17,842 nt of DNA. Source: Desulfurobacterium sp. Lineage in GTDB: Bacteria > Aquificota > Aquificia > Desulfurobacteriales > Desulfurobacteriaceae. The stretch is taken from the NCBI GenBank assembly GCA_003978805.1, contig QNYI01000060.1:1-17842 (forward strand), given 5' to 3'. This document shows positions 1 through 17,842 of this stretch, one piece after another (position 1 is the first letter of the stretch; each line of letters starts with the position of its first letter). A model generated the notes under the pieces. The model did no database searches, was not told the DNA's origin, and was given only the letters and a program-made list of their open reading frames with translations. The translations under genes and the position numbers were made by a program.

Positions 1-669
1 TCTTTCTGTGCAGTCGGGGGAATACTCCTTTCACTTGAAGGGGAAGGGAGGCTTTTAAAAACGGTAAAGGTCTCCTTAGCTCCGATGCTCTTTACGCTCC
101 CGATTGTCCTGAACATCTTTGGAACGGTTAACATACTGAGCTGGCTTAACACGATTCTTGCCGGTTTTCTCTTTACTCCTTTTTTGATACTTTCCTTTCT
201 GTTTCAGGTCACTTTCGGCAGGTTGGAGTTTTTAAATCGGTTGACGGAGCTCTTGGGTTACCTCTTTATTGAGAGCTCCCAATACCTCTTCTTTCTCACA
301 AAGTGGTCTGTGGTTCACTGTGAGGTTCCCCTCTTTCTTTCAGGAGCCGTTATGGTCTTAACTTTAATTTTTATTCTCTTTCTAAGACCCGTTTACGGAT
401 TTGTCCCCTTAACTTTTCTCCTCGTCTATTCCGTTTTGTTTCAAACCGTAGAGGAGGGGAAGAAACTGTTTGTAAGGGGATGGAAGCTTAATTCCTTCTA
501 CTTTATCTCTACTGAGGGGCAGAGGTACAGAAACTCAGAGATAGGAAGCAGTTATGTTTTTCCCTTTTCAAGGAAGCTCCTCTTCAGGAGCCGGTTGGTT
601 GACTGCAGGGTTAGTAAGGACCTTGAAATTTGTTCTAAAATTCAAAAAACAAAAGTGAGAGGTAGATAA
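1..669 (+). CDS. comEC: ComEC/Rec2-type DNA uptake channel protein, C-terminal part (5' end outside window)
   Basis: The frame is open from base 1, so the gene starts upstream. The visible 222 residues match the C-terminal half of the competence (ComEC/Rec2) membrane domain. Family hallmarks near the start are a Ser-Leu-Ala-Pro stretch, then a Thr-Leu-Pro turn (about residues 32-34) and an Asn-x-Ile-Leu-Ala-Gly-Phe segment leading into a hydrophobic helix. Further hydrophobic helices lie near residues 60-75, 110-135 and 138-155. ComEC forms the inner-membrane channel that carries single-stranded DNA into the cell during transformation. After the last helix only about 65 polar residues remain before the TAA stop. 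There is no metallo-beta-lactamase domain, which many longer ComEC proteins carry at this end. The stop lies one base before the aspS ATG, so the two genes are probably cotranscribed. Assignment rests on pattern resemblance of a fragment. Confidence 0.8.
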   Translation, partial: SFCAVGGILLSLEGEGRLLKTVKVSLAPMLFTLPIVLNIFGTVNILSWLNTILAGFLFTPFLILSFLFQVTFGRLEFLNRLTELLGYLFIESSQYLFFLTKWSVVHCEVPLFLSGAVMVLTLIFILFLRPVYGFVPLTFLLVYSVLFQTVEEGKKLFVRGWKLNSFYFISTEGQRYRNSEIGSSYVFPFSRKLLFRSRLVDCRVSKDLEICSKIQKTKVRGR

Positions 670-670
670 A

Positions 671-2458
671 ATGCTTGAACACCTTGGAAGTTTTAAGAGA
701 ACTCACTACTGCGGGGAAGTTACCGGAAAGGACATTGGAGATAGAGTAAGGGTTGCCGGTTGGGTTGATTCAACAAGGGACCACGGTGGCGTCGTTTTCG
801 TTGACCTCAGGGACAGGAGCGGTAAAGTTCAGGTTGTCTTCTCCCCCGAAATTTCCGAGGAGTTGGTTGAGAAGGCTAAGAGGTTGAGGGATGAATACGT
901 AATAGCCGTTGAGGGAGAGGTAAGGAGGAGACCTCCGGGAACAGAAAATCCGAAGTTAAAGACCGGGCAGATTGAGATATACGCAGAGAAGTTACAAATC
1001 CTGAATAAGTCACTTCCGCTTCCGTTTCCTATTGAGGACGACGTTAAGGTGGGGGAGGAGACGAGGTTAAAGTTCAGGTTCTTGGACTTAAGAAGGAAAA
1101 GGATGGCAGAGAACATAATTTTCCGCCACAGACTCTATCAGGTTACGAGGAGAGTCTTTAACGAGGAGGGATTTATAGAGATAGAAACTCCCTACCTAAC
1201 AAAGAGCACTCCCGAGGGGGCGAGGGACTTTTTAGTTCCGAGCAGGATTTACCCAGGTAAGTTCTACGCCCTTCCTCAGTCTCCCCAACTGTTTAAGCAG
1301 ATTTTGATGGTTTCGGGCTTTGACAGGTACTACCAGATTGCGAGGTGCTTCAGGGACGAAGACCTGAGGGCAGACAGACAGCCCGAGTTTACCCAGATAG
1401 ACTTTGAGATGTCCTTTGTCAGCGAGCGGGACGTTATGGACGTTGCAGAGAAAGTTATTAGGACGTTGTACAAGGAGCTCCTTGGTATAGAAGTCGGCGA
1501 GATTCCCGTAATGACTTACGACGAGGCTATAAAGCGCTTTGGAACGGACAGGCCTGATACGAGGTTCGGCCTTGAGCTAAGGGAAATTACAGATGTAGCA
1601 GAAACTTGCAGTTTTAAAGTCTTTAGAACGGTAGTTGAAAACGGTGGAATCGTTAAGGCCATAAACTTTAAAGGCGGTGCAAAGCTTTCAAGGAAAGAGA
1701 TAGACGATTTAACAAAGTTTGTCGGAATTTACGGTGCTAAGGGACTTGCTTGGATAAAGGTTACGGCAAACGGCCTTCAGTCTCCAATTGTTAAGTTCTT
1801 TACAGAAGGAGAAATGAACGAAATCCTGAAGAGGCTTGAGGCAGAGGTCGGAGATATCCTCTTCTTTGTTGCCGATAAGCCGGACGTCGTTAACGCTTCC
1901 CTTTCAAACCTTCGCATAAAGCTCGGGAGGATGGCAGGCCTTATAGACGACAGTAAGGTTAACCTCCTATGGGTTGTTGACTTCCCGATGTTTGAGTGGA
2001 ACGAAGAGGAAAACAGGTGGGAGGCACTCCACCATCCATTTACAAGTCCAAAGGAAGAGGACGTTGAAAAGCTCCTTGAAGACCCGGCAAGCGTTAGGGC
2101 AAGGGCTTACGATATGGTCTTAAACGGCGTTGAGATAGGTGGGGGTAGTATCCGTATTCACAGGGAGGATATACAGGAAAAGGTATTTAAGGTTATTGGA
2201 CTCTCTGACGAAGAGGCGAAAGAGAGGTTCGGCTTCCTCCTTGAGGCTTTAAAGTTTGGAGCTCCACCCCACGGCGGAATGGCCTTTGGACTTGATAGGC
2301 TCTGCGCCATAATGAGAGGAGAAGAGTCCATAAGGGACGTTATTGCCTTCCCGAAGACCCAAAAGGGTCAGTGTTTACTTACCGGAGCTCCCGATACCGT
2401 CAGACCTGAACAGCTTGAGGAGCTCCACATCTCTGTTAAACTTGAGGAGGAAGAGTAA
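671..2458 (+). CDS. aspS: Aspartate-tRNA ligase (bacterial type, probably non-discriminating)
   Basis: This 595-residue class II aminoacyl-tRNA synthetase charges tRNA with aspartate in the cytoplasm. An N-terminal OB-fold anticodon-binding domain (about 15-110) is followed by the catalytic core. Motif 1 lies around 166-190, motif 2 around 225-245 (Arg-Cys-Phe-Arg-Asp-Glu-Asp) and motif 3 near 540-555 (Gly-Leu-Asp-Arg). A bacterial GAD insertion domain sits at roughly 290-400. Length is normal for bacterial AspRS. His38 and Gly90 occupy the two anticodon-domain positions that, as known from Pseudomonas work, mark the non-discriminating form able to charge tRNA-Asn as well. The ATG start is preceded by AGAGG and lies one base after the comEC stop. 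A hairpin follows the stop codon. Confidence 0.97.
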   Translation: MLEHLGSFKRTHYCGEVTGKDIGDRVRVAGWVDSTRDHGGVVFVDLRDRSGKVQVVFSPEISEELVEKAKRLRDEYVIAVEGEVRRRPPGTENPKLKTGQIEIYAEKLQILNKSLPLPFPIEDDVKVGEETRLKFRFLDLRRKRMAENIIFRHRLYQVTRRVFNEEGFIEIETPYLTKSTPEGARDFLVPSRIYPGKFYALPQSPQLFKQILMVSGFDRYYQIARCFRDEDLRADRQPEFTQIDFEMSFVSERDVMDVAEKVIRTLYKELLGIEVGEIPVMTYDEAIKRFGTDRPDTRFGLELREITDVAETCSFKVFRTVVENGGIVKAINFKGGAKLSRKEIDDLTKFVGIYGAKGLAWIKVTANGLQSPIVKFFTEGEMNEILKRLEAEVGDILFFVADKPDVVNASLSNLRIKLGRMAGLIDDSKVNLLWVVDFPMFEWNEEENRWEALHHPFTSPKEEDVEKLLEDPASVRARAYDMVLNGVEIGGGSIRIHREDIQEKVFKVIGLSDEEAKERFGFLLEALKFGAPPHGGMAFGLDRLCAIMRGEESIRDVIAFPKTQKGQCLLTGAPDTVRPEQLEELHISVKLEEEE

Positions 2459-2463
2459 TCCAA

Positions 2464-2484: not shown

Positions 2485-2489
2485 AAATT

Positions 2490-2990
2490 TTATCCCTTCA
2501 AGAACTTTAAGTTTTCTAAGTCTTCAAGGAGAGACTGTAAATCCTCCTCGTGTTCCATTTCGTCAGTCATTATTTGAAGGGCGAGGTTGTAAGTTACCGG
2601 GTCAATGTCCCTTGTTATCTTCATTATCTCGTTGTAGGTATCAATTGCACACTGCTCACCTTTTATGTTCTGCTCAAGGATTTGTCTGACAAAAGGGTTT
2701 TCTGGAGCATCGTAACCGCAGTTTGTTAGCTCAAACCACTGTTTTGGGGATAGAACGGGAGTTCCTCCCAGTTCCAGTATCCTCATAACGAGCATATCGG
2801 CGTGTCTGAGCTCATCGTTTGCGTGCTGGACAAGCTCAGCAATTACTGCATCCTTCATTGGCCCCTTTACAACCTTTGAGCCTATCCAGTACTGGTAGTA
2901 GGCGAGCCACTCGTCGCAGAGAGCTCTGTTGAGCAGTTCAACTATCCTGTCGGCGTGCTCGCCGACGAGCTGGCGGGCTTTTGTTCCCAT
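2490..2990 (-). CDS. DPS-like ferritin (DPSL/thioferritin-type, bacterioferritin-like)
   Basis: This 166-residue four-helix ferritin-like protein should oxidise and store iron and protect against peroxide. Metal ligands are visible in order: Glu27; Glu60 with His63 (E-x-x-H); Glu112; and Glu144 with His147 (second E-x-x-H). This is the bacterioferritin-type intrasubunit di-iron centre, not the intersubunit site of true Dps. Cys91 (in Asn-Cys-Gly-Tyr) and Cys114 (in Glu-Gln-Cys-Ala-Ile) match the paired cysteines that define the DPSL or thioferritin group known from Sulfolobus, Pyrococcus and some anaerobic bacteria. A strong GGAAGGAG precedes the ATG. The gene lies 70 bases downstream of trpF on the same strand and may have its own promoter there. 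The ferritin-like fold is secure; the DPSL subgroup is likely. Confidence 0.88.
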   Translation of the reverse strand: MGTKARQLVGEHADRIVELLNRALCDEWLAYYQYWIGSKVVKGPMKDAVIAELVQHANDELRHADMLVMRILELGGTPVLSPKQWFELTNCGYDAPENPFVRQILEQNIKGEQCAIDTYNEIMKITRDIDPVTYNLALQIMTDEMEHEEDLQSLLEDLENLKFLKG

Positions 2991-3060
2991 AGTTCACTCC
3001 TTCCTTGTATTTGTCCCTTTCCTTTTAACTTATTATTCCTTTTGAGTAACTACAAGCTTC

Positions 3061-3769: not shown

Positions 3770-5005
3770 ATGTTTGAGACAAAGGTTCCCCTTAGGAAGT
3801 GCTCTTTCTGCGGAAGAGACCAAACGAAAGTAGAAGCTCTGATTACGGGGCCCGGGGGAGTTGCCATATGCAACCACTGCATAGATGAGTGTTACGAACT
3901 GATACATCAGGAAAGTGACGAGAGGAAAGGTTCACCGGTATCCATAGATAGACTTCCTACTCCGAAGGAAATTAAGGAGTTCCTTGACCAGTACGTCATA
4001 GGCCAAGAGGAGGCCAAAAAAGTTCTCGCTGTAGCGGTATACAACCACTACAAGAGAATAATGTCCGGTAAGGATACCGACGACGTTGAAATAGAAAAGA
4101 GTAATATCCTCCTGATAGGTCCCACCGGTTCCGGAAAGACTCTCCTTGCCCGCTCCTTGGCGAAACTCCTTGATGTTCCCTTTGCTATAGCAGATGCAAC
4201 TACTTTAACAGAAGCCGGCTACGTAGGTGAGGACGTTGAGAACATACTTTTAAGGCTCATTCAGGCGGCAGACTACGACATTGAGAAGGCAGAAAGGGGT
4301 ATCATCTACATTGACGAGATAGACAAGATTTCAAGGAAGAGTGAAAATCCCTCTATCACGAGGGACGTTTCAGGTGAAGGCGTTCAACAGGCATTACTGA
4401 AAATCCTTGAAGGAACGATTGCAAACGTCCCACCTCAGGGAGGTCGTAAACACCCCCACCAGCAGTACATTCAGATAGACACGACCAACATTCTCTTTAT
4501 CTGCGGTGGAGCTTTTGTAGGACTTGAGGACATTATCGCCCGCAGGATAGGTAAAGGAGCGATGGGCTTTACTGCCGACGTGGATAAGAAAAAGCTTGAC
4601 AGGGATGAGCTTTTAAAGCACGTTGAGCCGGATGACCTCGTTAAGTTCGGTCTTATTCCGGAGCTCATAGGAAGGTTACCTGTCGTTGCTACTCTGAGCG
4701 AACTTAAGGAGGACGACCTCGTTAGAGTTCTAAAAGAACCGAAGAACGCCCTCGTAAAGCAGTACAAGAAACTCCTTGAGCTTGAGGGAGTTGAGCTTGA
4801 ATTTACGGAGGGAGCTCTCAGGGCTATTGCTCGGGAAGCTATTAGGAGGAAAACCGGTGCAAGGGGACTTAGGGCGATTATGGAGAAGATAATGACGGAC
4901 GTTATGTTTGAAGTTCCTACCAGAAAGGACATTAAAAAAGTTATAATAGATGCCGATTCTGTAAAAACTGGAAAACCAAAATACGAGCTTGTGAAGGCAT
5001 CTTAG
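3770..5005 (+). CDS. clpX: ATP-dependent Clp protease ATP-binding subunit ClpX
   Basis: This 411-residue AAA+ unfoldase feeds substrates into the ClpP protease. The N-terminal zinc-binding domain has Cys11, Cys14, Cys34 and Cys37. Walker A is at 117-124 (GPTGSGKT), the GYVG pore loop at 150-153, Walker B at 178-185 (IIYIDEID) and the RKH loop at 226-228. The ClpP-docking loop, usually IGF, reads MGF at 265-267, which still fits the family consensus. I chose the ATG at 3770 because AAAGGAG sits 5 bases upstream. An upstream in-frame TTG at 3743 would add nine residues without a ribosome site and is rejected. No clpP lies in the window. The gene opens an operon continuing into tpiA after 9 bases. 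Confidence 0.97.
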
Positions 5006-5014
5006 GAGGGTAGG

Positions 5015-5770
5015 GTGAGAAGGCTCTTAATTGCCGGTAACTGGAAAATGCACAAGACCGTTGAGGGAGCTCTTTCGTTAATCAGGGAGCTTAAGAGATT
5101 GGTTTCAGACGTTAACCATAGGGATATACTCGTTTGTCCACCTTTTACGGCTCTATACGCTGTAAGGGCGGAGCTTAAAGGGAGTAACATATCTCTCGGT
5201 GCTCAAAATATGTTCTACGAGGAAGAAGGAGCTTTTACGGGCGAGATTTCTCCCTTAATGCTAAGAGATGTTGGTTGTTCTTACGTCATTCTGGGGCACT
5301 CTGAGAGGAGGCACATTTTTGGGGAAACGGACGAGCTCATAAATAAAAAAGTTCTCTCCGCCGTTAACCACGGCCTTATCCCTATTCTCTGTGTAGGTGA
5401 GACCTTACAGGAAAGAGAGGACGGTAAAACGAAAGAGGTAATTGAGAGGCAGGTAAGGGAGGGACTTAAAGGGCTTAGTGAAACTTCGGAGTTTGTGATA
5501 GCCTACGAGCCGGTTTGGGCTATCGGAACCGGAAGGACTGCCACTCCCGAGCTTGCAGAGGAAGTTCACTCCTTTATAAGGGAACTACTTTCTGAGATGT
5601 TCGGAGCTAAAAAAGCAGAGAGCGTTAGGATTCTTTACGGTGGAAGCGTTAAACCTGAAAACGCAGCAGGCCTTTTAAGTCAACCTAACATTGACGGGAG
5701 TTTGGTCGGTGGAGCGAGCCTTAAAGCGGATAGCTTTGCTAAAATTGTAAAATTTGATGCGGAGGGGTGA
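5015..5770 (+). CDS. tpiA: Triosephosphate isomerase
   Basis: This 251-residue cytoplasmic TIM barrel interconverts dihydroxyacetone phosphate and glyceraldehyde 3-phosphate. In an autotroph it would serve mainly gluconeogenic carbon flow. Catalytic residues are canonical: Asn9 and Lys11 in Ala-Gly-Asn-Trp-Lys-Met, His95 in Gly-His-Ser-Glu-Arg-Arg, and Glu165 in Tyr-Glu-Pro-Val-Trp-Ala-Ile-Gly-Thr-Gly with the loop-6 lid. The phosphate-binding Tyr-Gly-Gly-Ser-Val follows near the C-terminus. The start codon is GTG; AGGAGG ends 5 bases before it. The TGA stop shares one base with the secG ATG, indicating coupled translation. Confidence 0.98.
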   Translation: MRRLLIAGNWKMHKTVEGALSLIRELKRLVSDVNHRDILVCPPFTALYAVRAELKGSNISLGAQNMFYEEEGAFTGEISPLMLRDVGCSYVILGHSERRHIFGETDELINKKVLSAVNHGLIPILCVGETLQEREDGKTKEVIERQVREGLKGLSETSEFVIAYEPVWAIGTGRTATPELAEEVHSFIRELLSEMFGAKKAESVRILYGGSVKPENAAGLLSQPNIDGSLVGGASLKADSFAKIVKFDAEG

Positions 5771-6062: not shown

Positions 6063-6614
6063 ATGGGAGGTTTAAGGAAGTTTATTTCCCTATTTTTCCT
6101 TTTTTTCCTGTTTTTTGCGTTTTCAGGGTGTAAGGAAAACCATACAACTGCCCTCTCTAATCCTTCAGTATCCGTCTACTTTTCTCCCCGCGGGGGAGCT
6201 ACATCTGCAGTTGTTTCGGAGATAAGAGGGGCTAAGGATAGTATTGACGTGGCCATCTACTCTTTCACCAGCAGGAGGATAGCCAGAGCTCTCATACAGG
6301 CATATAGAAGGGGGGTAAGGGTTAGAGTAGTTGCAGATGAAGGTTCTGCAAGGTCAAGGAACAGCGTCCTTCCGTTCCTTGAGTCTGTGGGAATTCCGGT
6401 TAGGTACAAAAGGGGAAGTGGCGGTGGGCTTATGCACAATAAGTACGCAGTAATAGACGGGAAAACGGTTATAACCGGTAGCTTTAACTGGACTGTAAGC
6501 GCAGAAAGACGTAACGATGAGAACTTGCTTGTAATAAAAGGGCTTCCTGCCGTTGTTAAGGCCTATGAGGAGAACTTTGAGAGACTCTGGAAGTTGGCGG
6601 GGCTGACAAATTGA
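6063..6614 (+). CDS. Phospholipase D-like (single HKD) putative lipoprotein, probable nuclease
   Basis: This 183-residue protein starts with a basic-hydrophobic signal peptide ending in a lipobox (Phe-Ser-Gly-Cys23), so it should be a lipid-anchored protein outside the cytoplasmic membrane. The rest is one phospholipase D-like domain (about 34-175). The motif HxK(x)4D is complete: His125, Lys127, Asp132, followed by Gly-Ser-Phe-Asn-Trp at 139-143. One HKD per chain implies a homodimer, as in the small Nuc-type endonucleases. It most resembles that PLDc_2 nuclease group, though lipid hydrolysis cannot be excluded. It lies 14 bases after secG with no good ribosome site before the ATG, and overlaps glnD by 4 bases. 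The domain is secure, the substrate is not known. Confidence 0.85.
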   Translation: MGGLRKFISLFFLFFLFFAFSGCKENHTTALSNPSVSVYFSPRGGATSAVVSEIRGAKDSIDVAIYSFTSRRIARALIQAYRRGVRVRVVADEGSARSRNSVLPFLESVGIPVRYKRGSGGGLMHNKYAVIDGKTVITGSFNWTVSAERRNDENLLVIKGLPAVVKAYEENFERLWKLAGLTN

Positions 6615-9235
6615 AGGATCTGGAGTCCTTAAAGGAGGCTTTTTTCAGGGAGAGGGAAAGAGTAAAGGAGCTCCACTTTAACAAAGAAACGGGATTTTCG
6701 GTTGCAGATAGCTTAAAAAAGGGTCTTGATTTCCTTTTAAAGCCGGCCTTTGAATACTTTTTCGGGAAGTGGGATATACCGGTTACCTGCTATGCCTTGG
6801 GTGGTTACGGACGGGGGGAGCTCAACTTCCATTCCGATATTGACCTGAATCTCATCTACCGGGGGAAACTTACAGAGGCTCACCTTGAGGATATAGAAGC
6901 TTTCTACTACTTCCTCCTCTCCTTGAAACTTGACCTTGGGTTCTCTCCAAGGAGCGTTGATGAGGCGTTGGAGCTTTCCCAGAAAGACCTCTCAATCTTT
7001 ACGAACATCCTTCAGCGAAGGTTCCTCGCAGGGAGTATAGAGGTTGACACTTTCTTCTCTCAGAGGTTTGGTGAGTTCCTTGAAAAGAATAAGAAATCCT
7101 TAGTCCTTGAGATTGTTGTTGCAAGGAGCGACAGGTATAAAAGGTTCTACGGCACTGTCTACTACCAAGAGCCGAACGTTAAGGAGAGTAAAGGGGGACT
7201 GAGGGATCTCCACGAAGCCTTCTGGGTTGCGAAAATCGTTTACGGTATAGAAAACTACTCCGGTTTCCTTGACAGGAAGATACTTGACAGGAAAAACTTT
7301 AGAGATGTCGTCTCTGCCTACGATTTCCTCCTGAGGGTTAGGAACCACCTCCATATTACTTCCGGTAGGAAGAGCGATATCCTCTCCTTTGAGATGCAGA
7401 GGGTAGTAGCCGATTTCTTCGGCTTCCCTAAGACGAGGAAAGGTGTAGAGCAATTTATGAAGAGTTACTTTAACGCTGCTACCGACCTTTCTGTAATAAC
7501 AAAGGAGATTATAAAGGGAGCTCTTGAAGAGCTTGAAAGGGAAAAGACCAAGGTATTCATCCCTGCCGTCCTCTCTGAGAACGAGCTGATAGACGGCGTT
7601 TTCTACGTAGAGGGAAACGTTTTATTTGTAAGCGAAGAGAAAGAGGGGGAAGTTCTTAAAGACCCTGCCCTTGTCCTTAAAGGCTTTAAGTTGGTTCAGG
7701 AGAAGGGACTGGAACTCTCTGCAGGGACGTTTTCTCTCTTTAAGCTATCCGCAGAAACGAATAAAGAGAAGTTCAGGAAAAAAGAGGTTCTCTCACTTTT
7801 TAAAGATATACTGACCGATAAAAGGAGGCTCTCCTACACCTTAGAGAAGATGCACGATACAAAAGTTCTGGGAGCTCTCATCCCCGACTTTGAGAGGTTA
7901 AGAGGACACTTCCAGTACGACACTTACCATAAGTTCACCACAGATATCCACTCAATTCTTACCGTAAGGGAACTTGAAAAGATAGAGGAAAAAGGAACAA
8001 ATGCAACTTCCGTTAAGGAGAAGCAGGACTTCTACCAGATACTACAGGACTTGGAATCCCCCCACCTTCTATTCGTCGGAGCTCTCTTCCACGACATCGG
8101 TAAAGGAAAACCGGGAAGGCACGAAATAGTTGGTGCAGGACTTACAAGGAGATACCTCTCTGAGATGGGCTTTTCTAAAGAAGAGATAGAAGAAGTTTCT
8201 TGGCTTGTGAAGAACCACTTAAGGATGTTTCACCTTGCCTTTAGGAGGGATATCTCAGACCCAGAGCTCATAGAACAGTTTAAAAATGAGTGTGGAACAG
8301 AGGAGAGGTTAAAAAAGCTCTTCCTTTTGACCTACGCAGATATAAAGGCCGTCGGCCCCGGTGCTTGGGATAACTGGAAGAGTACCCTCCTCTGGACACT
8401 TTACCGTTCAACGTTATCCCTCTTTACCGAGAAAAAGAGTGCCGAGGAACTAATAGCCGAGAAGCTCAAAAGGAGGAAGGAGAAAGTTAAAGAGCTCCTT
8501 AAGGGGAAAATTAAACCGGAGTCTGTAGAGCGGTTCTTTAGAAATGCCGACAGGGATTACCTGATTACCTACCCTTCCGATGAGATAGCCAACCACCTCC
8601 TCCTCATGAAGAAAGTTCGGAGGGAAGGTAGGGAGTATGCCGTCTACAGTGAAAGTTATCCGGACATTGGCTTTACAAAGCTTACAATCGTTACAGAGTA
8701 TAGGAGGGGTCTCTTTAACGAGATAGCGGGAATCCTTTCTTACCTCGGTATAAACATTAAGGGAGCAAATATCAACAGGGCTATTGAGGATGACTGTGAG
8801 TGTATGGTTTACACAATTCACGTCTCAACAGTTGCCGGAGAAGCTCTACCTTGTGAGAGGGTAAGGAGGTTTGAGGAACTCCTTTCTAAGCTCTATTCCG
8901 GGGAGTTTTCGTCAAAAGATTTACCTCCCGACCTCATGAAGCCTAAATCCTTTAGGCGAAACGTTCCTCTACCGGAAAACAAAGTAAAAATTGACAACAG
9001 AACCTCTGAGAGGTATACAATCGTTGAAGTCTCCACCTACGACAGGCTGGGAGTCCTCTACGCCATAACGAAGGTTCTCATTGACATGAAAACGCGCCTT
9101 CGGAGGGCAATTATTACCACCGAGGGTAATAGGGTTATAGACAGCTTCTACATAACCGATATGGAATACAGGAAGATTACCGATGAAGGTTTCTTGAGGG
9201 AGCTCTCAGAAAGAATACTGGAAGTTATTAGGTAA
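6611..9235 (+). CDS. glnD: [Protein-PII] uridylyltransferase / uridylyl-removing enzyme GlnD
   Basis: This 874-residue bifunctional nitrogen sensor adds UMP to and removes it from PII protein according to glutamine level. Domains in order: a nucleotidyltransferase with Gly-Gly-Tyr-Gly-Arg-Gly-Glu-Leu (64-71) and catalytic Asp76 and Asp78; a helical linker; an HD hydrolase domain with His494-Asp495 (uridylyl removal); and two C-terminal ACT domains (about 690-765 and 802-874) that bind glutamine. All modules are intact and length is normal. The start is a TTG sharing the stop codon region of the preceding gene (TTGA), with only a weak GGCGGGG upstream, so initiation is probably coupled. No other start lies within a plausible distance. 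No glnB or glnA is in the window. Confidence 0.95.
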   Translation: MKDLESLKEAFFRERERVKELHFNKETGFSVADSLKKGLDFLLKPAFEYFFGKWDIPVTCYALGGYGRGELNFHSDIDLNLIYRGKLTEAHLEDIEAFYYFLLSLKLDLGFSPRSVDEALELSQKDLSIFTNILQRRFLAGSIEVDTFFSQRFGEFLEKNKKSLVLEIVVARSDRYKRFYGTVYYQEPNVKESKGGLRDLHEAFWVAKIVYGIENYSGFLDRKILDRKNFRDVVSAYDFLLRVRNHLHITSGRKSDILSFEMQRVVADFFGFPKTRKGVEQFMKSYFNAATDLSVITKEIIKGALEELEREKTKVFIPAVLSENELIDGVFYVEGNVLFVSEEKEGEVLKDPALVLKGFKLVQEKGLELSAGTFSLFKLSAETNKEKFRKKEVLSLFKDILTDKRRLSYTLEKMHDTKVLGALIPDFERLRGHFQYDTYHKFTTDIHSILTVRELEKIEEKGTNATSVKEKQDFYQILQDLESPHLLFVGALFHDIGKGKPGRHEIVGAGLTRRYLSEMGFSKEEIEEVSWLVKNHLRMFHLAFRRDISDPELIEQFKNECGTEERLKKLFLLTYADIKAVGPGAWDNWKSTLLWTLYRSTLSLFTEKKSAEELIAEKLKRRKEKVKELLKGKIKPESVERFFRNADRDYLITYPSDEIANHLLLMKKVRREGREYAVYSESYPDIGFTKLTIVTEYRRGLFNEIAGILSYLGINIKGANINRAIEDDCECMVYTIHVSTVAGEALPCERVRRFEELLSKLYSGEFSSKDLPPDLMKPKSFRRNVPLPENKVKIDNRTSERYTIVEVSTYDRLGVLYAITKVLIDMKTRLRRAIITTEGNRVIDSFYITDMEYRKITDEGFLRELSERILEVIR

Positions 9236-10699: not shown

Positions 10700-12574
10700 C
10701 TACTCCTTTTTCAGGACTACTATCTGGTTCCTGATTGTCTTAACTGCGGTGTTAAATAGGTTCCTTAGATCCCGATACTCCTCCGGGGTGATAACGCTCT
10801 TTGTAAGAACCATCCGGGAGCGCATTTTTACCTTGGACTCTTCTACTTCCCACTCTATAGAAAAGCTACCTACCCTGTTCTGGAAGAAGAAGTTCTCGGG
10901 CTTTAGGTAGAGCTTGTACTTTGGCGGAAACTTTAGTTCAACCTCACTGACCTTTGACATTTTATAGCCGACAACGTAAGGGTACTTCCTCTTCTTTGCT
11001 GCAACTAAGGAGACGATTCTGCTATAGTCGGGAGCGGGGAACTTTGCAAGGAGGAAGTGAGAGGTAAGCGTCCCGTAGTTTTTATCCTTCCCTTCTATCT
11101 CTATGGTTACATCTGGAGCGTTCAGGTCTTTGTAGTCTGAGAGCTTAAACTCCTCTACGTCAAAGCCCGGGGAAACCCGGGATGCGAGTCCTTCAACGTG
11201 TCTTTTTACGGATGAGGGTGTTGAGTTCATAAGTCTTGCCCTTTCAAAGACGCTGTAGACTCCCCTGTAGATGAAGGTGAAGCGACCGCGGAGCTCTCCC
11301 GAAGGAGAGAGGCTAAAGTTTCCTTTAAAGCCTTCAAGGTTTTCTGACGGCGGAGCAACCGGTGTTCTGTCAACCGTGCCTTTTTCCTTTTCGGTGTCTA
11401 CGACTAAGACGTTCCTTCCCTGATCGCTGGCGGGTAGGTATTTAAAGGGAACGTAATCAGAGGTTGTATCCATGTAAAGGAATTGGCCGTTAACCTTTAT
11501 GGCGGCAATTTCGTGGTTAAAGGCCGTTGGCAGGGGCACTTCAGGATCCATGTTAGACTTACTTAAGGTGGGAATTAAAACGGGGTAACCTTTTACTCCT
11601 ATGACCTTAAGCATTGCTATAAGGAGTGTAGCGTGATCCTTACAGTCTCCGTACCTGTTCTTCAAGACCTCAGAAGCTTTATGGGGCTTGTAGCCGTTTA
11701 TCCCGAACTCCATTCCAACGTAACGGATATTCTTGGCGACAAAGTTGTAGATAGCTCTTACCTTCTCTTCCTGCGTTTTTTTACCCTTAACTATTTCTTC
11801 AACTGTTTTCTTAAGGGTTTCATCGGGCTCTAAGGCCTCTTTTGCAAGCTCTGAGTACCACTTGGCAATCTCATCCCAGCTTTTTATGGAAGTAATAACT
11901 ACCTTCTTTGCAAGCTCTCCGATGGGAGGAGCGTTCGGTTCTTTCTCTATGGGAGGAACGTTTTCTAACTTCCAGCTAAAGACAACGTAATCTCCCTCTT
12001 CAGAGACTTGAGGGTTTGCCTCCTCGTTGGTCATGTTGTAGGTCTTAAACTTGAAGAATTTCCCCTTAGGGATGTAGGCCTTAAATGTTGCCTCTTTTAC
12101 CGGGTACTCATCCTGAAAGAAGTTCGTTGTCCAGAACTCGTTCTTCATGTAGGGTTTGAAAGTTTCCAGCACAAAAGCGTACTTAATAACGGCTCCCTTC
12201 GTGACTGCCGGCATTGAAATGGTCTGATACTTTAGGTCTGAGTAGATGGGAGCTTCTGAGACAAAGGGCGGGTAAACGACGTTAAAGGCCTTTTTATCGG
12301 GCTTTACTATAGTGCCGTCGGGTAAAACGGTGTATGCGTAGAGTATCCTTAGCTTTTGGTGCTCTGTGGAAAACTGGATAACGATCTCTCCAAAGTCCTT
12401 TATTCCCCTCTTATCAAGGATTTTTACTGCTTTTTCTTCCTTCCAGACTTTCCTTCCGTCTGGAAAGAACCTTACCTCAGAGTGGTCGTAGAGGATGAGA
12501 GCTCCGAAGTCTTTCGCAAGAACGCTAAGGGGAAAGAGAACAATAAAGAGTATGGCGGTTAGAAGACGTCCCAT
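10700..12574 (-). CDS. Exported DUF3857 / transglutaminase-like domain protein
   Basis: This 624-residue protein has a signal peptide (residues 1-20, Val-Leu-Ala before Lys21) and no later membrane helix, so it should act in the periplasm or at the outer membrane. Residues about 25-220 match DUF3857. The middle is a transglutaminase-like core with the full triad: Cys311 in Tyr-Gly-Asp-Cys-Lys-Asp, His354 in Phe-Asn-His-Glu, and Asp369 in Tyr-Met-Asp-Thr. The C-terminal third (about 400-620) looks like a beta-rich domain. In this family the core may be a protease or crosslinker; the substrate is unknown. AGGAGG precedes the ATG, 12 bases after glmM. Its place between glmM and tsaD suggests cotranscription, not a shared pathway. 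Confidence 0.88.
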   Translation of the reverse strand: MGRLLTAILFIVLFPLSVLAKDFGALILYDHSEVRFFPDGRKVWKEEKAVKILDKRGIKDFGEIVIQFSTEHQKLRILYAYTVLPDGTIVKPDKKAFNVVYPPFVSEAPIYSDLKYQTISMPAVTKGAVIKYAFVLETFKPYMKNEFWTTNFFQDEYPVKEATFKAYIPKGKFFKFKTYNMTNEEANPQVSEEGDYVVFSWKLENVPPIEKEPNAPPIGELAKKVVITSIKSWDEIAKWYSELAKEALEPDETLKKTVEEIVKGKKTQEEKVRAIYNFVAKNIRYVGMEFGINGYKPHKASEVLKNRYGDCKDHATLLIAMLKVIGVKGYPVLIPTLSKSNMDPEVPLPTAFNHEIAAIKVNGQFLYMDTTSDYVPFKYLPASDQGRNVLVVDTEKEKGTVDRTPVAPPSENLEGFKGNFSLSPSGELRGRFTFIYRGVYSVFERARLMNSTPSSVKRHVEGLASRVSPGFDVEEFKLSDYKDLNAPDVTIEIEGKDKNYGTLTSHFLLAKFPAPDYSRIVSLVAAKKRKYPYVVGYKMSKVSEVELKFPPKYKLYLKPENFFFQNRVGSFSIEWEVEESKVKMRSRMVLTKSVITPEEYRDLRNLFNTAVKTIRNQIVVLKKE

Positions 12575-12586: not shown

Positions 12587-13933
12587 TTAGAATGCTATGC
12601 CTTCTTCCTTTACCGCTTTTTCCAAGTTTTCTATTATGACGTCAATTAGCCTCTCGTCCTCTGCTTCAACCATTATCCTTAGGACGGGTTCAGTTCCCGA
12701 GTAGCGGACTAAAACCCTGCCTTTATCGGCCAGTTTTTCTTCCGCTTCTTCTATTGCCTTCTGGAGCTTTTCAAGTCTCTCAAGGGGAGGTTTCTCTTTG
12801 ACCCTTACGTTCTTTAACTTCTGCGGGAATGTCTTTACCATAGAAGCGAGCTGGCTCAGCGGTTTCTTAACGGATTTTGTAATTGAAGCGATTAGGATTG
12901 CTGTAAGGATTCCGTCCCCGGTTTCGTTGAACTCCTTGATGATGACGTGGCCGGACTGCTCTCCGCCGACGAGAGCTCCCACCTCATCCATCTTCTCCGC
13001 CACAAACCTATCTCCTACCGGAGTTCTGTGGAGCTTGAGTCCCATCTCTCTTAGGAACACTTCAAGTCCCATGTTGCTCATAACCGTTGCAACTACCTCC
13101 TTGCTCTTCTGGGCGTAGTGGGCTGCCAGTATGGCTATGAGCTTATCTCCGTTTAAGATGTTACCCTCTTCGTCAACGGCGATGCACCTGTCGCCGTCAC
13201 CGTCAAAGGCAAATCCCATGTGGAGGTTAAGGTCTCTGACTTTCTGGGCTATGAACTCGGGGTGGAGAGCTCCGCACCCGTCGTTTACGTTTTTCCCGTC
13301 AGGTTCGGCGTTAAAGACGAAGACCCTTGCACCGAGGGACTTAAAGACTTGAGGAGCTATCTGAAAGGTGGCACCGTTGGCGCAATCAATGCCTATTTTA
13401 AGTCCAGCCAAGTATCTTCCGGCGGATTCAAGGTGTTTCTCGTAGGATTCAACGAGGTTCTCACCGTCAAAAACCCTTCCGATGTTCTCGGGAGAAGCTT
13501 TTGGGAGCTCGTATTTGTTAAATACGACAAGTTCCAGCCCTCCCTCTTCTACTTCAGAGAACTTCTTTCCTTCCCTTGTAAAGAACTTCAGTCCGTTGTA
13601 CTCGTACGGGTTGTGGGAGGCAGATACCATTACTCCGCCGGAGAGATTTCCCTCCTTGACAAAATAAGAAATGGCCGGCGTAGGAACTACTCCGACGTCT
13701 ATTACGTCAATGCCGGTTGCCGTCAGTCCGCTGATAAAGGCACTCTTAATCATGTCGGAAGAGAGGCGGGTGTCTTTACCGATAACAACGGTGTGTTTCT
13801 CGTTCGGGAACTTGGCGTTCAAGTAGACACCGTAAGCTATGCCTATCTTCTGAACCATTTCAGGGGTTAGCGGGTATCTATTGGCAATGCCTCTTATCCC
13901 GTCCGTTCCAAAGAGTTTCCTTTTTGCCTTCAT
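12587..13933 (-). CDS. glmM: Phosphoglucosamine mutase
   Basis: This 448-residue cytoplasmic enzyme converts glucosamine-6-phosphate to glucosamine-1-phosphate on the way to UDP-GlcNAc for peptidoglycan and lipopolysaccharide. Thr-Asp-Gly-Ile-Arg-Gly opens the protein. The phosphoserine loop is Ser-Ala-Ser106-His-Asn-Pro. The magnesium loop has Asp244, Asp246 and Asp248. The sugar-binding Gly-Gly-Glu-Gln-Ser-Gly-His and the phosphate-binding Arg-Tyr-Ser-Gly-Thr-Glu-Pro are both present. The ATG overlaps the cdaR stop by 4 bases (ATGA) and follows GGGAGGA. In Gram-positive bacteria GlmM binds and inhibits CdaA, and the shared operon here suggests the same link. Confidence 0.97.
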   Translation of the reverse strand: MKAKRKLFGTDGIRGIANRYPLTPEMVQKIGIAYGVYLNAKFPNEKHTVVIGKDTRLSSDMIKSAFISGLTATGIDVIDVGVVPTPAISYFVKEGNLSGGVMVSASHNPYEYNGLKFFTREGKKFSEVEEGGLELVVFNKYELPKASPENIGRVFDGENLVESYEKHLESAGRYLAGLKIGIDCANGATFQIAPQVFKSLGARVFVFNAEPDGKNVNDGCGALHPEFIAQKVRDLNLHMGFAFDGDGDRCIAVDEEGNILNGDKLIAILAAHYAQKSKEVVATVMSNMGLEVFLREMGLKLHRTPVGDRFVAEKMDEVGALVGGEQSGHVIIKEFNETGDGILTAILIASITKSVKKPLSQLASMVKTFPQKLKNVRVKEKPPLERLEKLQKAIEEAEEKLADKGRVLVRYSGTEPVLRIMVEAEDERLIDVIIENLEKAVKEEGIAF

Positions 13934-14565: not shown

Positions 14566-15361
14566 TACTGTTTCTCCTCAACCTGAAGAAAGAGTTTCTC
14601 TCCTTCACCTTTTTAACGAGAAGTCCTTTTAGAACCTTCTTTAGCTTTTGGGGGTCAAGGTTTTTTATTAGCTTGCCGGTGTAGGCCACGGATACAGCAC
14701 CGGTTTCTTCGGAGACAACAACTACGATTGAGTCCGTTTCCTCGGTTATTCCTATGGCGGCACGGTGCCTTGTCCCGACTGTTTGAGGGAGGTGGGGGTT
14801 GAGGGAGAGGGGAAGAAAGGCTCCGGCCTTGTAGATTTTATCCCTCCTTATTATCGTTGCTCCGTCGTGGAGAGGAGTTCCCGGCCAGAAAATTGTAATG
14901 AGGAGCTCTTTGGACAGTTTACCGTTGATGACAGTTCCGGATTCAATGTAGTTGTCTAAGTTTACCTCCCTCTCAATAACCATCAGAGCTCCTATCCTGT
15001 CCTCAGACATTGCCGCAGCAGCTCTTACGATCTCCTCAATTACCTTCTCTGCTTCCTCCTCGGAAGAGAATATGCCGAAATGTTTTTCACCAATTCGGGC
15101 GAGGATTCTCCTAATTTCTGGCTGGAAGATGACAAGGAGTGCAAAGATACCTATCGTTATCAGGTTGTTAAATATAAAAGATAAGGTGTACAGGTGGAAA
15201 AACTTAGCAATGACGCTGAGAATGAGGAGGAAAAGGAGACCTATGAGTATCTGGATTGCTCTTGTCTGGGAGAGGTAGACAAAGACCCTGTATATGAGGA
15301 AAGTTACAACCAGTATGTCTATTACGTCCCAGAGCGTTATCTTTGGGAAGGTCTCTAACAA
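14549..15361 (-). CDS. cdaA: Membrane diadenylate cyclase CdaA
   Basis: This 270-residue enzyme makes cyclic di-AMP from two ATP at the inner face of the membrane. Three hydrophobic helices (about 10-30, 36-53, 60-79) precede a DAC domain (about 100-245). Its signature residues are visible: Leu-His-Asp166-Gly-Ala and Gly-Thr-Arg198-His-Arg200, plus Ser-Gly-Thr-Val-Ile-Asn-Gly at 141-147 and Ser-Glu-Glu-Thr-Gly-Ala near 217-222. The start is TTG, chosen because AGGAGG sits 4 bases upstream and no ATG is near. It overlaps the folP stop by 7 bases. Order folP-cdaA-cdaR-glmM makes the assignment firm. Confidence 0.96.
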   Translation of the reverse strand: MLETFPKITLWDVIDILVVTFLIYRVFVYLSQTRAIQILIGLLFLLILSVIAKFFHLYTLSFIFNNLITIGIFALLVIFQPEIRRILARIGEKHFGIFSSEEEAEKVIEEIVRAAAAMSEDRIGALMVIEREVNLDNYIESGTVINGKLSKELLITIFWPGTPLHDGATIIRRDKIYKAGAFLPLSLNPHLPQTVGTRHRAAIGITEETDSIVVVVSEETGAVSVAYTGKLIKNLDPQKLKKVLKGLLVKKVKERNSFFRLRRNSSEEVA

Positions 15362-16563
15362 ACGGCCTCCTCAATTGCAAGTATGGTGTCAAGGAACTGT
15401 TTCGTTTCCTTTACGTCGTGGACTCTGAGGATTTTAGCGCCGTTTAGAACGGCTACCGCTACCGCTGCAAGGCTTCCCGGAACTCTTTTGGCCGGAACTC
15501 CCTCTCCCGTTACGGCTCCTATGAAACTCTTCCTTGAAGCCCCTATGAGTATCGGCAGGCCGAACACTTTAAACTCGGAGAGTCTCCTTAGTATGCACAG
15601 GTTGTCAATAACTCTCTTACCAAAGCCTATTCCGGGGTCAATGATGAGCTGTGAGCGGTCTACACCCCTGCTTTCTGCCAGCTTTATAGTTTCTGAGAAG
15701 TAATTTATGATCTCTTTAACGACATCGTCGTAGTAAGGGTTCTTCTGCATCTCTTTGGGAGTTCCCTTTATGTGCATAACAACGGCCGGACACTTCCTCT
15801 CTGCCACAAGGGAGGCCATCCTGTCGTCAAAGTGAAACCCACTTATATCGTTGACTATGTCTGCTCCGGCGTCAAGAGCCTTTTCTGCAACGGTAGACTT
15901 GTAGGTGTCTATTGAGATGAAGAAATCCTCTCCGAGCCTTTTTCTTATTTCCTCTATTACGGGAACGGTTCTCCTTATTTCTTCTTCTGCGGGAACGGGA
16001 TCTGCGCCGGGACGGGTTGACTCTCCGCCGATGTCTATAATCTGAGCTCCCTCTTCAAGCATCTCCTCGCACCTTTTAAGAGCTCTATCGCGGGAGCTGT
16101 AGAGTCCTCCGTCCGAGAAGGAGTCTGGAGTTACGTTGAGTATTCCCATTATGACCGGCCTTTTAAGGGAGAGTTCCTTCCCTCTGTAAGAGATGGTGAA
16201 TGAGTCTTTCCTGTACTCTGAGAAGGTTTTCTGGAGTTCTTTGGAGAGCTCTCTGAGGCCAAAGGGCTGTAACTTGAGTTTTTCAATGAGCCTTTCAAGC
16301 TCCCTTTCCGTTACCATTAAAAGGACTGTGCACTTTCCCTTTTCAAAGCTTGAGGCTTTCCTCGGGACGGCACAGTCCCCTCCCAGTGCTATAGCGTCCT
16401 GCTTTAAGATGTTTGCTGCCCTTGTGTCTAAATCCGCTATTTCAAGTAACAGAACCTTACCTTTTTTTGCCAAGATTTCCGTTCCTTGTGGAGTATTCCC
16501 TATCTTTAGCAGGTACTCTTTCAGCTCCTCCGTCTTTTTAAATTCCTTGAGAACGATGGACAT
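15355..16563 (-). CDS. folP: Dihydropteroate synthase, long form with extra N-terminal domain
   Basis: This 402-residue protein joins p-aminobenzoate to the pterin pyrophosphate in folate synthesis. The TIM-barrel core (about 131-400) carries the family motifs: Gly-Ile-Leu-Asn-Val-Thr-Pro-Asp-Ser-Phe-Ser-Asp-Gly (140-152), Gly-Gly-Glu-Ser-Thr-Arg-Pro-Gly (179-186), Ser-Ile-Asp-Thr (217-220), Asp-Pro-Gly-Ile-Gly-Phe-Gly-Lys (309-316), Gly-Ala-Ser-Arg-Lys-Ser (341-346) and Arg-Val-His-Asp-Val (380-384). Ordinary FolP is about 270-285 residues. The 130-residue extension contains Ala-Asn-Ile-Leu-Lys-Gln and Gly-Gly-Asp-Cys-Ala-Val, also seen in long FolP of Clostridia and other thermophiles, of unknown role. 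GAGG precedes the ATG by 5 bases. It is the first gene of the operon. Confidence 0.95.
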   Translation of the reverse strand: MSIVLKEFKKTEELKEYLLKIGNTPQGTEILAKKGKVLLLEIADLDTRAANILKQDAIALGGDCAVPRKASSFEKGKCTVLLMVTERELERLIEKLKLQPFGLRELSKELQKTFSEYRKDSFTISYRGKELSLKRPVIMGILNVTPDSFSDGGLYSSRDRALKRCEEMLEEGAQIIDIGGESTRPGADPVPAEEEIRRTVPVIEEIRKRLGEDFFISIDTYKSTVAEKALDAGADIVNDISGFHFDDRMASLVAERKCPAVVMHIKGTPKEMQKNPYYDDVVKEIINYFSETIKLAESRGVDRSQLIIDPGIGFGKRVIDNLCILRRLSEFKVFGLPILIGASRKSFIGAVTGEGVPAKRVPGSLAAVAVAVLNGAKILRVHDVKETKQFLDTILAIEEAVC

Positions 16564-16572
16564 TCCTTCCTC

Positions 16573-16603: not shown

Positions 16604-16626
16604 TGTTGACGTTAAGGGAGGTGGTA

Positions 16627-17842
16627 GTGGAAGAGCTCCTTTCCTTGAAAGAGGCTGCTCAACTTATATCACGGCTGTTTAACAGGAACATTTCGGAGGC
16701 AAATATTTCCTACCTGATAAACTACGGCAGAGTAAACGGCTACAGAAAGAATGGAAAGTTGCTTGTCTCTGTGAGGGAGTTGAAGGAGTACTACCAAAAG
16801 AAACAGGAAGAGGAGAAAAGGAAATATGAATCCTACTTGGGGAAAGAGATAAATTGGAACTTATCGTTTGAGTGGGTTAAAGAGTCTGAGAGGACAAAAC
16901 ACGTTCACCGTCTTCATCCTTATAAAGGTAAATTTATCCCTCAGCTTGTTGAATACTTTCTTGACGGCCACACAGATGAGTTTAAAAGAGAGGTTTTTTT
17001 TAAACCGGGAGAGGTAGTTCTTGATCCTTTTTGCGGAAGTGGAACGACCTTAATTCAAGCTAACGAGCTTGGAATTCACAGTATAGGTATAGATGTTTCC
17101 GAATTCAATACTATTATTACCGAAGTAAAGTTCGCAAACGTTAACATTATAGAGCTTGAGCTTGTAATAAGGGAAATTTTAAAGGACCTACAAACGTACG
17201 AATACCAAGAAAGGTTTCCGAAGTTTGAGGAAGAGCTTAAAGAAAAACTGCAAAACTTTAATCAAAGGTATTTCCCCTCTCCTGAGTTTAAAAAACTTTT
17301 CAGGGAAAGCAAAGTAGAAAAAAGCTATTTAGAGGAAAAAGAAGAAGAGTTTTTAGAGATTTACATATCCCTCCTGCGAAAATATAACATATCCTTAAAA
17401 AGTTCCTTTCAAGAAGGATTTCTTGATAGGTGGTGTTTACCGAGTGTTAGGCGGGGAGCAGAAATTGTCCTTTCGCGAATAGAGACGGTGAAAGATGAAA
17501 CATTGAGAAAGACTTTGATGGTAATCCTGAGCCGTTCAGTTCGTTCTGCACGTGCGACAACCCATATGGATCTGGACAGGCTGAAAAAGCCCCAGTATAC
17601 TCCCTACTACTGTTATAAGCACTTTAAGATCTGTAAACCTGTTTTTCGGTTGCTTCCTATATTCCAGAAGTACGCCAAGGATACTTTGAGAAGGTTGTTG
17701 GAGTATAAAAATTTGAAGACCGATGCTTTTCAGGTGGTTCTTACAGGGGATAGTAGGGAGATAGATATCTTTGAGGAGGTAAGAAAAAAGAACAGAGAGT
17801 TTTATGAGCTTCTTAGGAGACAAAAGATAAAGGGAATTTTCA
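16627..17842 (+). CDS. N4/N6-class DNA methyltransferase with N-terminal HTH domain (3' end outside window)
   Basis: The frame runs 405 codons from a GTG at 16627 to the window end without a stop. GGGAGG lies 5 bases upstream. Residues about 4-55 look like an excisionase/MerR-type winged helix (Ser-Leu-Lys-Glu-Ala-Ala, then Gly-Tyr-Arg-Lys-Asn-Gly-Lys and Ser-Val-Arg-Glu-Leu). The methyltransferase part starts with His-Pro-Tyr-Lys-Gly-Lys-Phe-Ile-Pro (97-105) and the S-adenosylmethionine loop Asp133-Pro-Phe-Cys-Gly-Ser-Gly-Thr-Thr, with acidic Asp156 (Ile-Asp-Val). Gly-Asp-Ser-Arg at 374-377 usually precedes the catalytic Ser/Asp-Pro-Pro-Tyr, which must lie beyond the window. Motif order fits beta-class amino-methyltransferases. 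Sampled GC is 30-38% against about 48% in glnD, suggesting transfer. Target sequence and any partner nuclease are unknown. Confidence 0.85.
   Translation, partial: MEELLSLKEAAQLISRLFNRNISEANISYLINYGRVNGYRKNGKLLVSVRELKEYYQKKQEEEKRKYESYLGKEINWNLSFEWVKESERTKHVHRLHPYKGKFIPQLVEYFLDGHTDEFKREVFFKPGEVVLDPFCGSGTTLIQANELGIHSIGIDVSEFNTIITEVKFANVNIIELELVIREILKDLQTYEYQERFPKFEEELKEKLQNFNQRYFPSPEFKKLFRESKVEKSYLEEKEEEFLEIYISLLRKYNISLKSSFQEGFLDRWCLPSVRRGAEIVLSRIETVKDETLRKTLMVILSRSVRSARATTHMDLDRLKKPQYTPYYCYKHFKICKPVFRLLPIFQKYAKDTLRRLLEYKNLKTDAFQVVLTGDSREIDIFEEVRKKNREFYELLRRQKIKGIF

Follow-up and report, generated by a model that had tools for sequence, protein, structure and literature searches.

The 17,842-nucleotide contig QNYI01000060.1 of Desulfurobacterium sp. 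(assembly GCA_003978805.1; family Desulfurobacteriaceae, phylum Aquificota), called the window in the following, is densely set with the palindrome GAGCTC, mostly lying between a purine and a pyrimidine. The resulting word, RGAGCTCY, is iterated throughout the source genome far above the demands of protein sequence and base composition, which points to some cellular process that creates and keeps it. RGAGCTCY resembles the highly iterated palindromes (HIPs) of cyanobacteria, and our preferred reading, which we put forward as a tentative but quite conceivable one, is that it is a chromosomal HIP kept up by an ongoing DNA-acting process that recognises the whole palindrome.

Genome-wide iteration of RGAGCTCY

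In the source genome of the window (G000; 958,870 bases in 168 contigs, 62% complete) GAGCTC occurs 1893 times and the reversed word CTCGAG once, and the 8-mer GGAGCTCT amounts to 354 + 331 = 685 copies over both strands versus 0 + 1 for the same word read backwards. As these counts cover the whole genome, the pattern is not local to the window, and the sequence-only reading of the window, whose proposal of a HIP hinged on enrichment elsewhere in the genome, holds in this respect. A 270-kb sample of G000, consisting of the window and 20 further contigs, contains 602 GAGCTC compared with 60 expected from base composition, which is the highest ratio among the 64 six-base palindromes, and a purine precedes GAGCTC in 84% of the half-sites. 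The same reading had named GGAGCTCT as the core of the motif. However, the counts of the main flank pairs are close to those predicted from independent frequencies on the two sides, namely GGAGCTCC (G..C) with 144 versus 140, GGAGCTCT (G..T) with 110 versus 104, AGAGCTCC (A..C) with 104 versus 104 and AGAGCTCT (A..T) with 84 versus 78, and therefore the word is RGAGCTCY with nearly independent flanks, and GGAGCTCT is ruled out as a particular core. Some rare flank pairs depart from independence, e.g., CGAGCTCA (C..A) with 12 versus 3.7.

Codon use and base composition

For the 270-kb sample, synonymous codons were permuted within 264 open frames, whereby each protein and the codon counts of each gene were kept (genes being open frames of at least 100 codons). 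This shuffle, which the sequence-only reading had set as the decisive comparison, predicts 207 GAGCTC where 581 are observed and 65 RGAGCTCY where 426 are observed; a stricter shuffle that also fixes the first base of the next codon predicts 295 and 150, respectively. Divided by frame, in-frame GAG-CTC (Glu-Leu) stands at 408 versus 182, frame 1 at 128 versus 15 and frame 2 at 45 versus 10. The earlier statement that one favoured codon pair does not explain the sites is thus to be qualified: GAG-CTC does contribute, with 408 of the 581 coding sites, but an excess remains after the codon shuffle, so that codon use accounts for part of the raw GAGCTC count and not for the excess.

Distribution among genomes

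Family genomes were called rich if they had ≥640 GAGCTC per Mb together with an R..Y share of 0.63 or more, limits that were chosen after seeing the counts. Among 22 genomes of the family 13 are rich (0.64-2.7 GAGCTC per kb; R..Y share 0.63-0.88), eight are unenriched (share 0.31-0.58) and one, G008, is intermediate with 185 GAGCTC per Mb and a share of 0.68. Codon tests were run on samples of 42-270 kb per genome (in G000 the first 120 open frames) and on named loci of 3-22 kb. In the eight rich genomes tested (G000, G001, G003, G004, G006, G015, G017, and G018 on 15 kb) the ratio of observed to shuffled GAGCTC lies between 2.5 and 4.0, and GAGCTC has the highest codon-shuffle z of all 64 palindromes in seven of seven sampled rich genomes. 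The corresponding ratios of six of the eight unenriched genomes are 1.13 (G009), 1.06 (G012), 0.75 (G007), 0.75 (G016), 0.23 (G002) and 0.16 (G005), those of G007, G012 and G016 resting on small counts. G009, which is congeneric with the rich G004, G014 and G017, has 1342 sites per Mb, yet its G+C content is 0.53 and its codon-shuffle ratio is the 1.13 just given. Moreover, seven of nine named family loci around aspS show GAGCTC ratios of 2.4 to 5.3 and RGAGCTCY ratios of 4.3 to 11.4; of the remaining two, L196 has a ratio of 2.1 on 4 sites and L192 has 0 sites versus 9.9 expected.

Outside the family, the pools of Hydrogenothermaceae (0.92) and Aquificaceae (0.81) are neutral, and four genomes sampled by codon shuffle gave ratios of 1.29-1.60. 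One 11-kb contig of the outside-family genome G076 has 31 GAGCTC versus 8.8 and 18 RGAGCTCY versus 2.1, and in G074, G121 and G126 the R..Y share is high compared with that of their congeners, which is a statement on the share only; these four may be separate gains.

Codons, amino acids and noncoding DNA

Because the grouping into rich and unenriched genomes used GAGCTC content itself, the evidence lies in contrasts within the groups and not in the difference between them. In seven rich genomes, GCT serves as the Ala codon following GGA in 222 of 243 cases before a C and in 230 of 526 before another base, and following AGA in 158 of 187 and 73 of 208 cases, respectively. In six unenriched genomes the fractions are 13/30 (next base C) versus 103/286 after GGA and 6/17 versus 70/185 after AGA. 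The odds ratios of the rich genomes across hexamer positions 1-6 are 4.7, 5.8-12.4, 2.6, 4.1, 10.5 and 2.6, those of the pooled unenriched genomes 0.5-1.2, and G002 and G005 show avoidance with an odds ratio of 0.1 at positions 3 and 6. The motif even seems to pull on protein sequences. Arg-Ala-Leu is found at 2.05 times expectation in rich and 1.08 times in unenriched genomes, and Gly-Ala-Leu at 1.40 and 0.79; the control tripeptides Ala-Gly-Leu (1.13 and 1.13) and Gly-Val-Leu (0.73 and 0.71) are steady, whereas the control Arg-Val-Leu shifts too (1.04 and 0.70). Since the force appears strong enough to change which amino acids are used, it bears on studies of codon usage and of selection in these genomes.

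The flanks are affected as well. Compared with control contexts, rich genomes have a stronger flank bias in all frames and on either side of the hexamer; the one exception is the left side of frame 1, where the controls also nearly always have a purine, and the margin on the left of frame 2 is small (0.86 versus 0.81 in controls). In noncoding pieces, which may include overlooked genes of <100 codons, GAGCTC exceeds a dinucleotide shuffle 4.2-fold in G000, 5.2-fold in G001, 8.9-fold in G017, 6.8-fold in G006 and 1.8-fold in G004. Among the unenriched genomes, G007 has 0 sites versus 0.7 expected and G009 a ratio of 5.8 (14 sites), and because of the latter the noncoding ratio alone is insufficient. 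The noncoding excess of G009 is perhaps a relic of former enrichment.

Sites in the window

A recount gave 36 GAGCTC in the 17,842 bases, with about 3.5 expected from base counts, which makes it the commonest of the 64 six-base palindromes before the runner-up TTTAAA (20); 29 of the 36 sites match RGAGCTCY. The other counts of the sequence-only reading were likewise reproduced: 20 sites are GGAGCTCT (13) or AGAGCTCC (7), seven have the extended form GGGAGCTCTC (5) or GAGAGCTCCC (2), and CTGCAG, GGATCC and ACCGGT occur 5, 2 and 7 times. The 20 of 36 are a local high, the genome-wide fraction being 685 of 1893 (binomial p 0.02). All sites are given on the plus strand:

246..253 (+), GGAGCTCT, RGAGCTCY site
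272..279 (+), AGAGCTCC site
1474..1481 (+), GGAGCTCC site
2258..2265 (+), GGAGCTCC site
2384..2391 (+), GGAGCTCC site
2419..2426 (+), GGAGCTCC site
2808..2813 (+), GAGCTC without R..Y flanks
2920..2927 (+), AGAGCTCT site
4661..4666 (+), GAGCTC without R..Y flanks
4811..4818 (+), GGAGCTCT site
5066..5073 (+), GGAGCTCT site
5333..5338 (+), GAGCTC without R..Y flanks
6285..6292 (+), AGAGCTCT site
6667..6674 (+), GGAGCTCC site
6818..6823 (+), GAGCTC without R..Y flanks
7517..7524 (+), GGAGCTCT site
7871..7878 (+), GGAGCTCT site
8078..8085 (+), GGAGCTCT site
8264..8269 (+), GAGCTC without R..Y flanks
8491..8498 (+), AGAGCTCC site
9199..9206 (+), GGAGCTCT site
9866..9873 (+), GGAGCTCT site
10103..10110 (+), GGAGCTCT site
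10447..10454 (+), GGAGCTCT site
10632..10639 (+), GGAGCTCT site
11290..11297 (+), GGAGCTCT site
12498..12505 (+), AGAGCTCC site
12972..12979 (+), AGAGCTCC site
13266..13273 (+), AGAGCTCC site
13505..13510 (+), GAGCTC without R..Y flanks
14902..14909 (+), GGAGCTCT site
14985..14992 (+), AGAGCTCC site
16044..16049 (+), GAGCTC without R..Y flanks
16079..16086 (+), AGAGCTCT site
16245..16252 (+), AGAGCTCT site
16632..16639 (+), AGAGCTCC site

Turnover and spacing of the sites

G000 was compared with G001, a genome of the same genus, over 76 orthologue pairs (71 kb, DNA 82% identical). G001 keeps 91 of the 168 GAGCTC of G000 (54%), and G000 keeps 91 of the 146 of G001. Over 118 hexamers with at least 60 occurrences the median retention is 31%; only TTGACG, CTTGAC, CTTTGA and the overlapping AGCTCT are retained better than GAGCTC, which comes fifth. 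In the small sets available across genera, 11 of 36 sites are retained in G004 (controls 15%), 3 of 9 in G006 (16%), 2 of 8 in G003 (5%) and 0 of 5 in G015 (18%). Among 75 differences of a single base at sites that were lost or gained, 26 fall on position 3 and 29 on position 6 (Glu-Leu frame). The sites turn over between species, with changes at several synonymous positions, yet they persist more than most hexamers do. Along 500 kb of G001, in which 1026 sites have a coefficient of variation of spacing of 1.12 and every 5-kb interval is occupied, neither even spacing nor clear repulsion between neighbours was seen, pairs closer than 20 bases numbering 23 versus 29 by chance and pairs at 20-50 bases 62 versus 59. 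Selection for coverage would be expected to leave such even spacing or repulsion, and because the spacing is near random, a site-by-site process fits better.

Some sites of G000 and G001 lie within extended perfect palindromes in gaps of <150 bp, like terminator hairpins, and one such intergenic palindrome extends 9 bases on each side. G001 has 2 such extensions of at least 3 bases among 7 short-gap sites and G000 has 1 among 4, compared with 4-5% of the coding sites.

Search for a recogniser

Five methylase families (PF01555, PF00145, PF02384, PF02086 and PF07669) were searched in 41 genomes, and no single methylase gene common to all rich genomes was found among them. PF01555 scores above cut-off in 12 of 13 rich versus three of eight unenriched family genomes (Fisher p 0.014), and in frames of <600 aa in 12 of 13 versus one of eight (Fisher p 0.0005), where the 600-aa split was chosen after seeing the data and the genomes are related. 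The window itself contains one member of this family:

16606..17841 (+), DNA amino-methyltransferase (PF01555), running off the contig end; weakly supported candidate GAGCTC recogniser

This methylase adjoins a dihydropteroate-synthase-like gene and is shared with G001, i.e., by both genomes of the genus, and its G001 counterpart is scored as a methyltransferase of type II. Copies with 73-84% identity are present on other contigs, one of which is named Desulfurobacterium sp., and relatives come from many phyla. Within the set of 41 genomes, only this genus and G032 have full-length matches, and G024 has a fragment; the methylase is thereby ruled out as the family-wide agent. In G001, its stop is overlapped by a 427-aa gene (L340:2255-3538, minus strand) without a Pfam match above cut-off. 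The 427-aa protein has 250 matches at E ≤ 0.001, and an invariant P-D...E-V-G-x-x-K core, which is nuclease-like, is found together with cysteine motifs in 11 aligned members, so that it is a candidate for a new restriction endonuclease family; because this gene with its nuclease-like motif overlaps the methylase, the two probably form a restriction-modification pair. Two other methylases were considered and dropped. The 1305-aa type IIG-like restriction-methylase of G000 (L021:6169-10086, minus strand), which lies beside a gene resembling hemE by eye, has similar-sized frames in the unenriched G005, G009 and G016, and type IIG enzymes usually recognise asymmetric sites. A methylase of about 295 aa (group A) is 79-97% conserved in G003, G011, G020 and G021 and was not seen in the other rich genomes.

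Likeness to cyanobacterial HIPs

The suggestion that the motif recalls HIP1 of cyanobacteria is well supported in the sense that it works alike: it is palindromic, mostly coding, present in all frames, of HIP-like density, patchy and unexplained by codons. HIP1 is GCGATCGC, alternate HIPs exist in cyanobacteria as well, and their densities are about 0.3-2.7 per kb (excerpts of Elhai, 2015, PMC4390886). As in a HIP, a single palindrome is overrepresented genome-wide, its density is in this range and codon use does not suffice for it; its host, however, is not a cyanobacterium but belongs to the Aquificota, and therefore RGAGCTCY is HIP-like and not HIP1. According to the same excerpts (PMC4390886), cyanobacterial HIPs share with it the extension past a 6-bp core, the patchiness among relatives, the strictest conservation at the A/T positions and a possible link to a methylase. 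Differences are the phylum, the sequence and the cognate methylase, which is only hypothetical here; furthermore, RGAGCTCY is family-wide over four genera, whereas the alternate HIPs of Elhai are sporadic (PMC4390886). Some high-HIP1 strains also have no recognisable CGATCG methylase, as stated in this source.

No paper directly on RGAGCTCY or GAGCTC iteration was found in the literature searched, which reached few subscription journals, and 'GAGCTC' is absent from the main texts, supplements excluded, of PMC4390886, PMC8259958, PMC4227106 and PMC4752239. HIP1 is still without an agreed function, and the literature searched describes it from cyanobacteria. An independent iterated palindrome in a second phylum, with rich, neutral and avoiding genomes in one family, is therefore a natural experiment: the family has cultivated members, the responsible gene should emerge from a comparison of rich and unenriched sister species, and the link between methylation and HIPs becomes testable where the usual methylase seems to be missing. 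For Desulfurobacterium thermolithotrophum DSM 11699, SMRT sequencing is on record (excerpts of PMC8259958).

Mechanism and alternatives

If RGAGCTCY is kept up by a process acting on the whole palindrome, the recogniser would be two-fold symmetric, and the likeliest candidates are a DNA methylase with sequence specificity and a repair protein coupled to such a methylase; its gene may be non-orthologous between genera. The recogniser would bias the outcome of mismatch repair, with site-creating mutations being retained and site-destroying mutations undone, which would be a site-by-site ratchet of the kind that Elhai proposed for cyanobacterial HIPs (excerpts of PMC4390886). In Elhai's model a new recognition site steers mismatch repair to keep itself, and the sites saturate at one per kb (PMC4390886); by analogy, this would fit the palindrome, the site-by-site action and the occasional gain and loss. 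The preferred reading is favoured by the excess over the codon shuffles, the Ala-codon contrast, the odds ratios at all six positions, the noncoding excess, the pull on Arg-Ala-Leu, the retention between G000 and G001, the spacing without evenness or clear repulsion, which a site-autonomous process predicts, and the short PF01555 methylases in 12 of 13 rich versus one of eight unenriched family genomes. Several observations weigh against the preferred reading. Densities of 2-2.7 per kb exceed the saturation of this model, and the model alone leaves G015 unexplained, a rich and 99% complete genome in which no PF01555, PF00145 or PF02086 match was found; it has PF02384 matches in one 493-aa frame, probably HsdM-sized, and weakly in two frames of 250 and 295 aa, and a PF07669 match in a 250-aa frame. 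In the 12 rich genomes with PF01555 methylases the proteins fall into several dissimilar types and no one gene is shared, and short PF01555 methylases occur in 13 of 19 outside-family genomes with R..Y shares of 0.31-0.52, none of which is rich by flank share. The window-type methylase is also present in G032 (53% identical), whose flank share does not make it rich, and in Persephonella, which belongs to a family with a neutral pool, and in G001 it probably belongs to restriction-modification. The codon-neutral G009 has its 5.8-fold noncoding excess and, taken alone, an odds ratio of 8.0 (1.9-34; 9 cases) at position 5, and the family genomes are not phylogenetically independent. Finally, deamination of 5-methylcytosine with very-short-patch repair is not a favoured route, because the orthologue differences fall at more than one position and GAACTC/GAGTTC are undepleted (rich/unenriched ratio 1.02); one-off words at positions 2/5 are mildly depleted in rich versus unenriched genomes (0.75-0.79).

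A variant that is possible but doubtful dispenses with a cognate methylase altogether: a sequence-specific DNA-binding or repair factor would keep RGAGCTCY, with repeated gains and losses across the Aquificota, namely gains in Desulfurobacteriaceae, independently in G076 and perhaps G074 (one genus), and perhaps in G121 and G126 (another). If true, the HIP system here would not depend on methylation and would be powerful enough to bend protein sequences. Rather unlikely is direct selection of the palindrome as binding site of a chromosomal protein in nucleoid, replication or recombination, in which methylation is not involved. The dyad-symmetric core with R and Y flanks, the want of a methylase common to the rich genomes in the five families and of a type II candidate there in G015 speak for it, but about 2 sites per kb with a spacing variation of 1.12 are denser than a structural site would seem to need, and no candidate protein was identified in this analysis. 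There is also a small chance that within this genus the methylase at 16606-17841 is the one that acts on GAGCTC and drives the motif. Its presence in both genomes of the genus beside the dihydropteroate-synthase-like gene and the type II score of the G001 copy favour this, while the other rich genera among the 41 genomes have no full-length match, G032 is not rich by flank share despite its copy, the relatives are spread over many phyla, and the partner gene suggests restriction-modification, which normally selects against its own sites. Very improbable is a by-product of composition, codon pairs or the avoidance of other palindromes such as TCGA. The share of the GAG-CTC dicodon (408 of 581) and the lack of TCGA in five of seven sampled rich genomes would suit it, but an excess persists under the codon-count (581 versus 207) as well as the codon-boundary (581 versus 295) shuffle, the enrichment extends to frames 1 and 2 and to noncoding DNA, and TCGA avoidance does not track GAGCTC; a codon-pair or composition artefact in particular is ruled out by the two kinds of shuffle, the frame counts and the noncoding counts.

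DNA uptake, in which competent cells prefer motif-bearing DNA, perhaps only if it is methylated, and transformation accumulates the motif, is improbable as well. In its favour are a density near that of known uptake sequences, sites that are conserved yet turn over, a lineage-specific loss and the presence of comEC. Like the methylated RAATTY mark of Campylobacter jejuni, on whose methylation uptake reportedly depends, RGAGCTCY is an R..Y-flanked palindrome, but no shared methylase was found here in the five families searched. RAATTY is the target of an orphan methylase family (excerpts of PMC4752239). The comEC gene, which the sequence-only reading had seen as fitting uptake though not as proof, is indeed widespread: PF03772, the sole competence gene searched, is present in 37 of the 41 genomes, among them every one of the 34 that are complete and clean. 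However, rich and unenriched genomes have it alike, and it therefore does not discriminate. In the 62%-complete G000 it gave no match above threshold, and the copy in the window is a truncated end:

1..669 (+), ComEC-like protein, C-terminal piece (PF03772 15.9 bits, below cut-off 23)

The proposed likeness to uptake sequences found no positive evidence. Those of Pasteurellaceae and Neisseriaceae are overrepresented in coding and noncoding DNA and evolve gradually, as the sites here do, but they lack palindromic symmetry, and noncoding DNA has more of them than expected (excerpts of PMC1939737). RGAGCTCY is palindromic and not evenly spaced, and the GAGCTC density in G000 and G001 is 1.2-1.4 per kb in noncoding versus 2.1-2.3 per kb in coding DNA. 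The noncoding density is also below the coding one in G004, G006 and G017 and above it only in the unenriched G009, and G007 has no noncoding site.

GAGCTC as a restriction target

GAGCTC is the recognition site of SacI. RE_SacI matched in one of 41 genomes, the unenriched G002 (21.1 bits versus a cut-off of 19.3), and in no rich genome. At L361:180-2235, G002 has adjacent genes for a Dam-like adenine methylase and a SacI-family endonuclease, a locus predicted to act on GAGCTC; a 54%-identical protein of Desulfurobacterium crinifex carries the name SacI-family restriction endonuclease. GAGCTC is the most depleted palindrome of G002 (7 versus 30 expected), and G005 avoids it without an RE_SacI match. 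Most of the family thus amplifies the very word that one member, which has a predicted GAGCTC-cutting enzyme, has purged. SacI-type restriction-modification shares the hexamer with the iterated word, but its gene was found in one of the 41 genomes only, which avoids GAGCTC.

Other palindromes are avoided, too. TCGA is nearly absent from the samples of G000, G001, G004, G015 and G017 (codon-shuffle ratio 0.00-0.02), in which CTAG has ratios of 0.02-0.11 in four and GATC of 0.03-0.48. TCGA loss does not track GAGCTC richness in the family, as G005 and G016 lack TCGA and are not enriched, while TCGA stands at about 0.4 in the enriched G003 and G006. In five genomes of other families (G048, G050, G052, G054 and G132) CTCGAG is commoner than GAGCTC, e.g., 1488 versus 44 in G054 and 924 versus 17 in G050. 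About half of the CTCGAG in these five genomes lies within YCTCGAGR (0.45-0.61), which is possibly another iterated palindrome.

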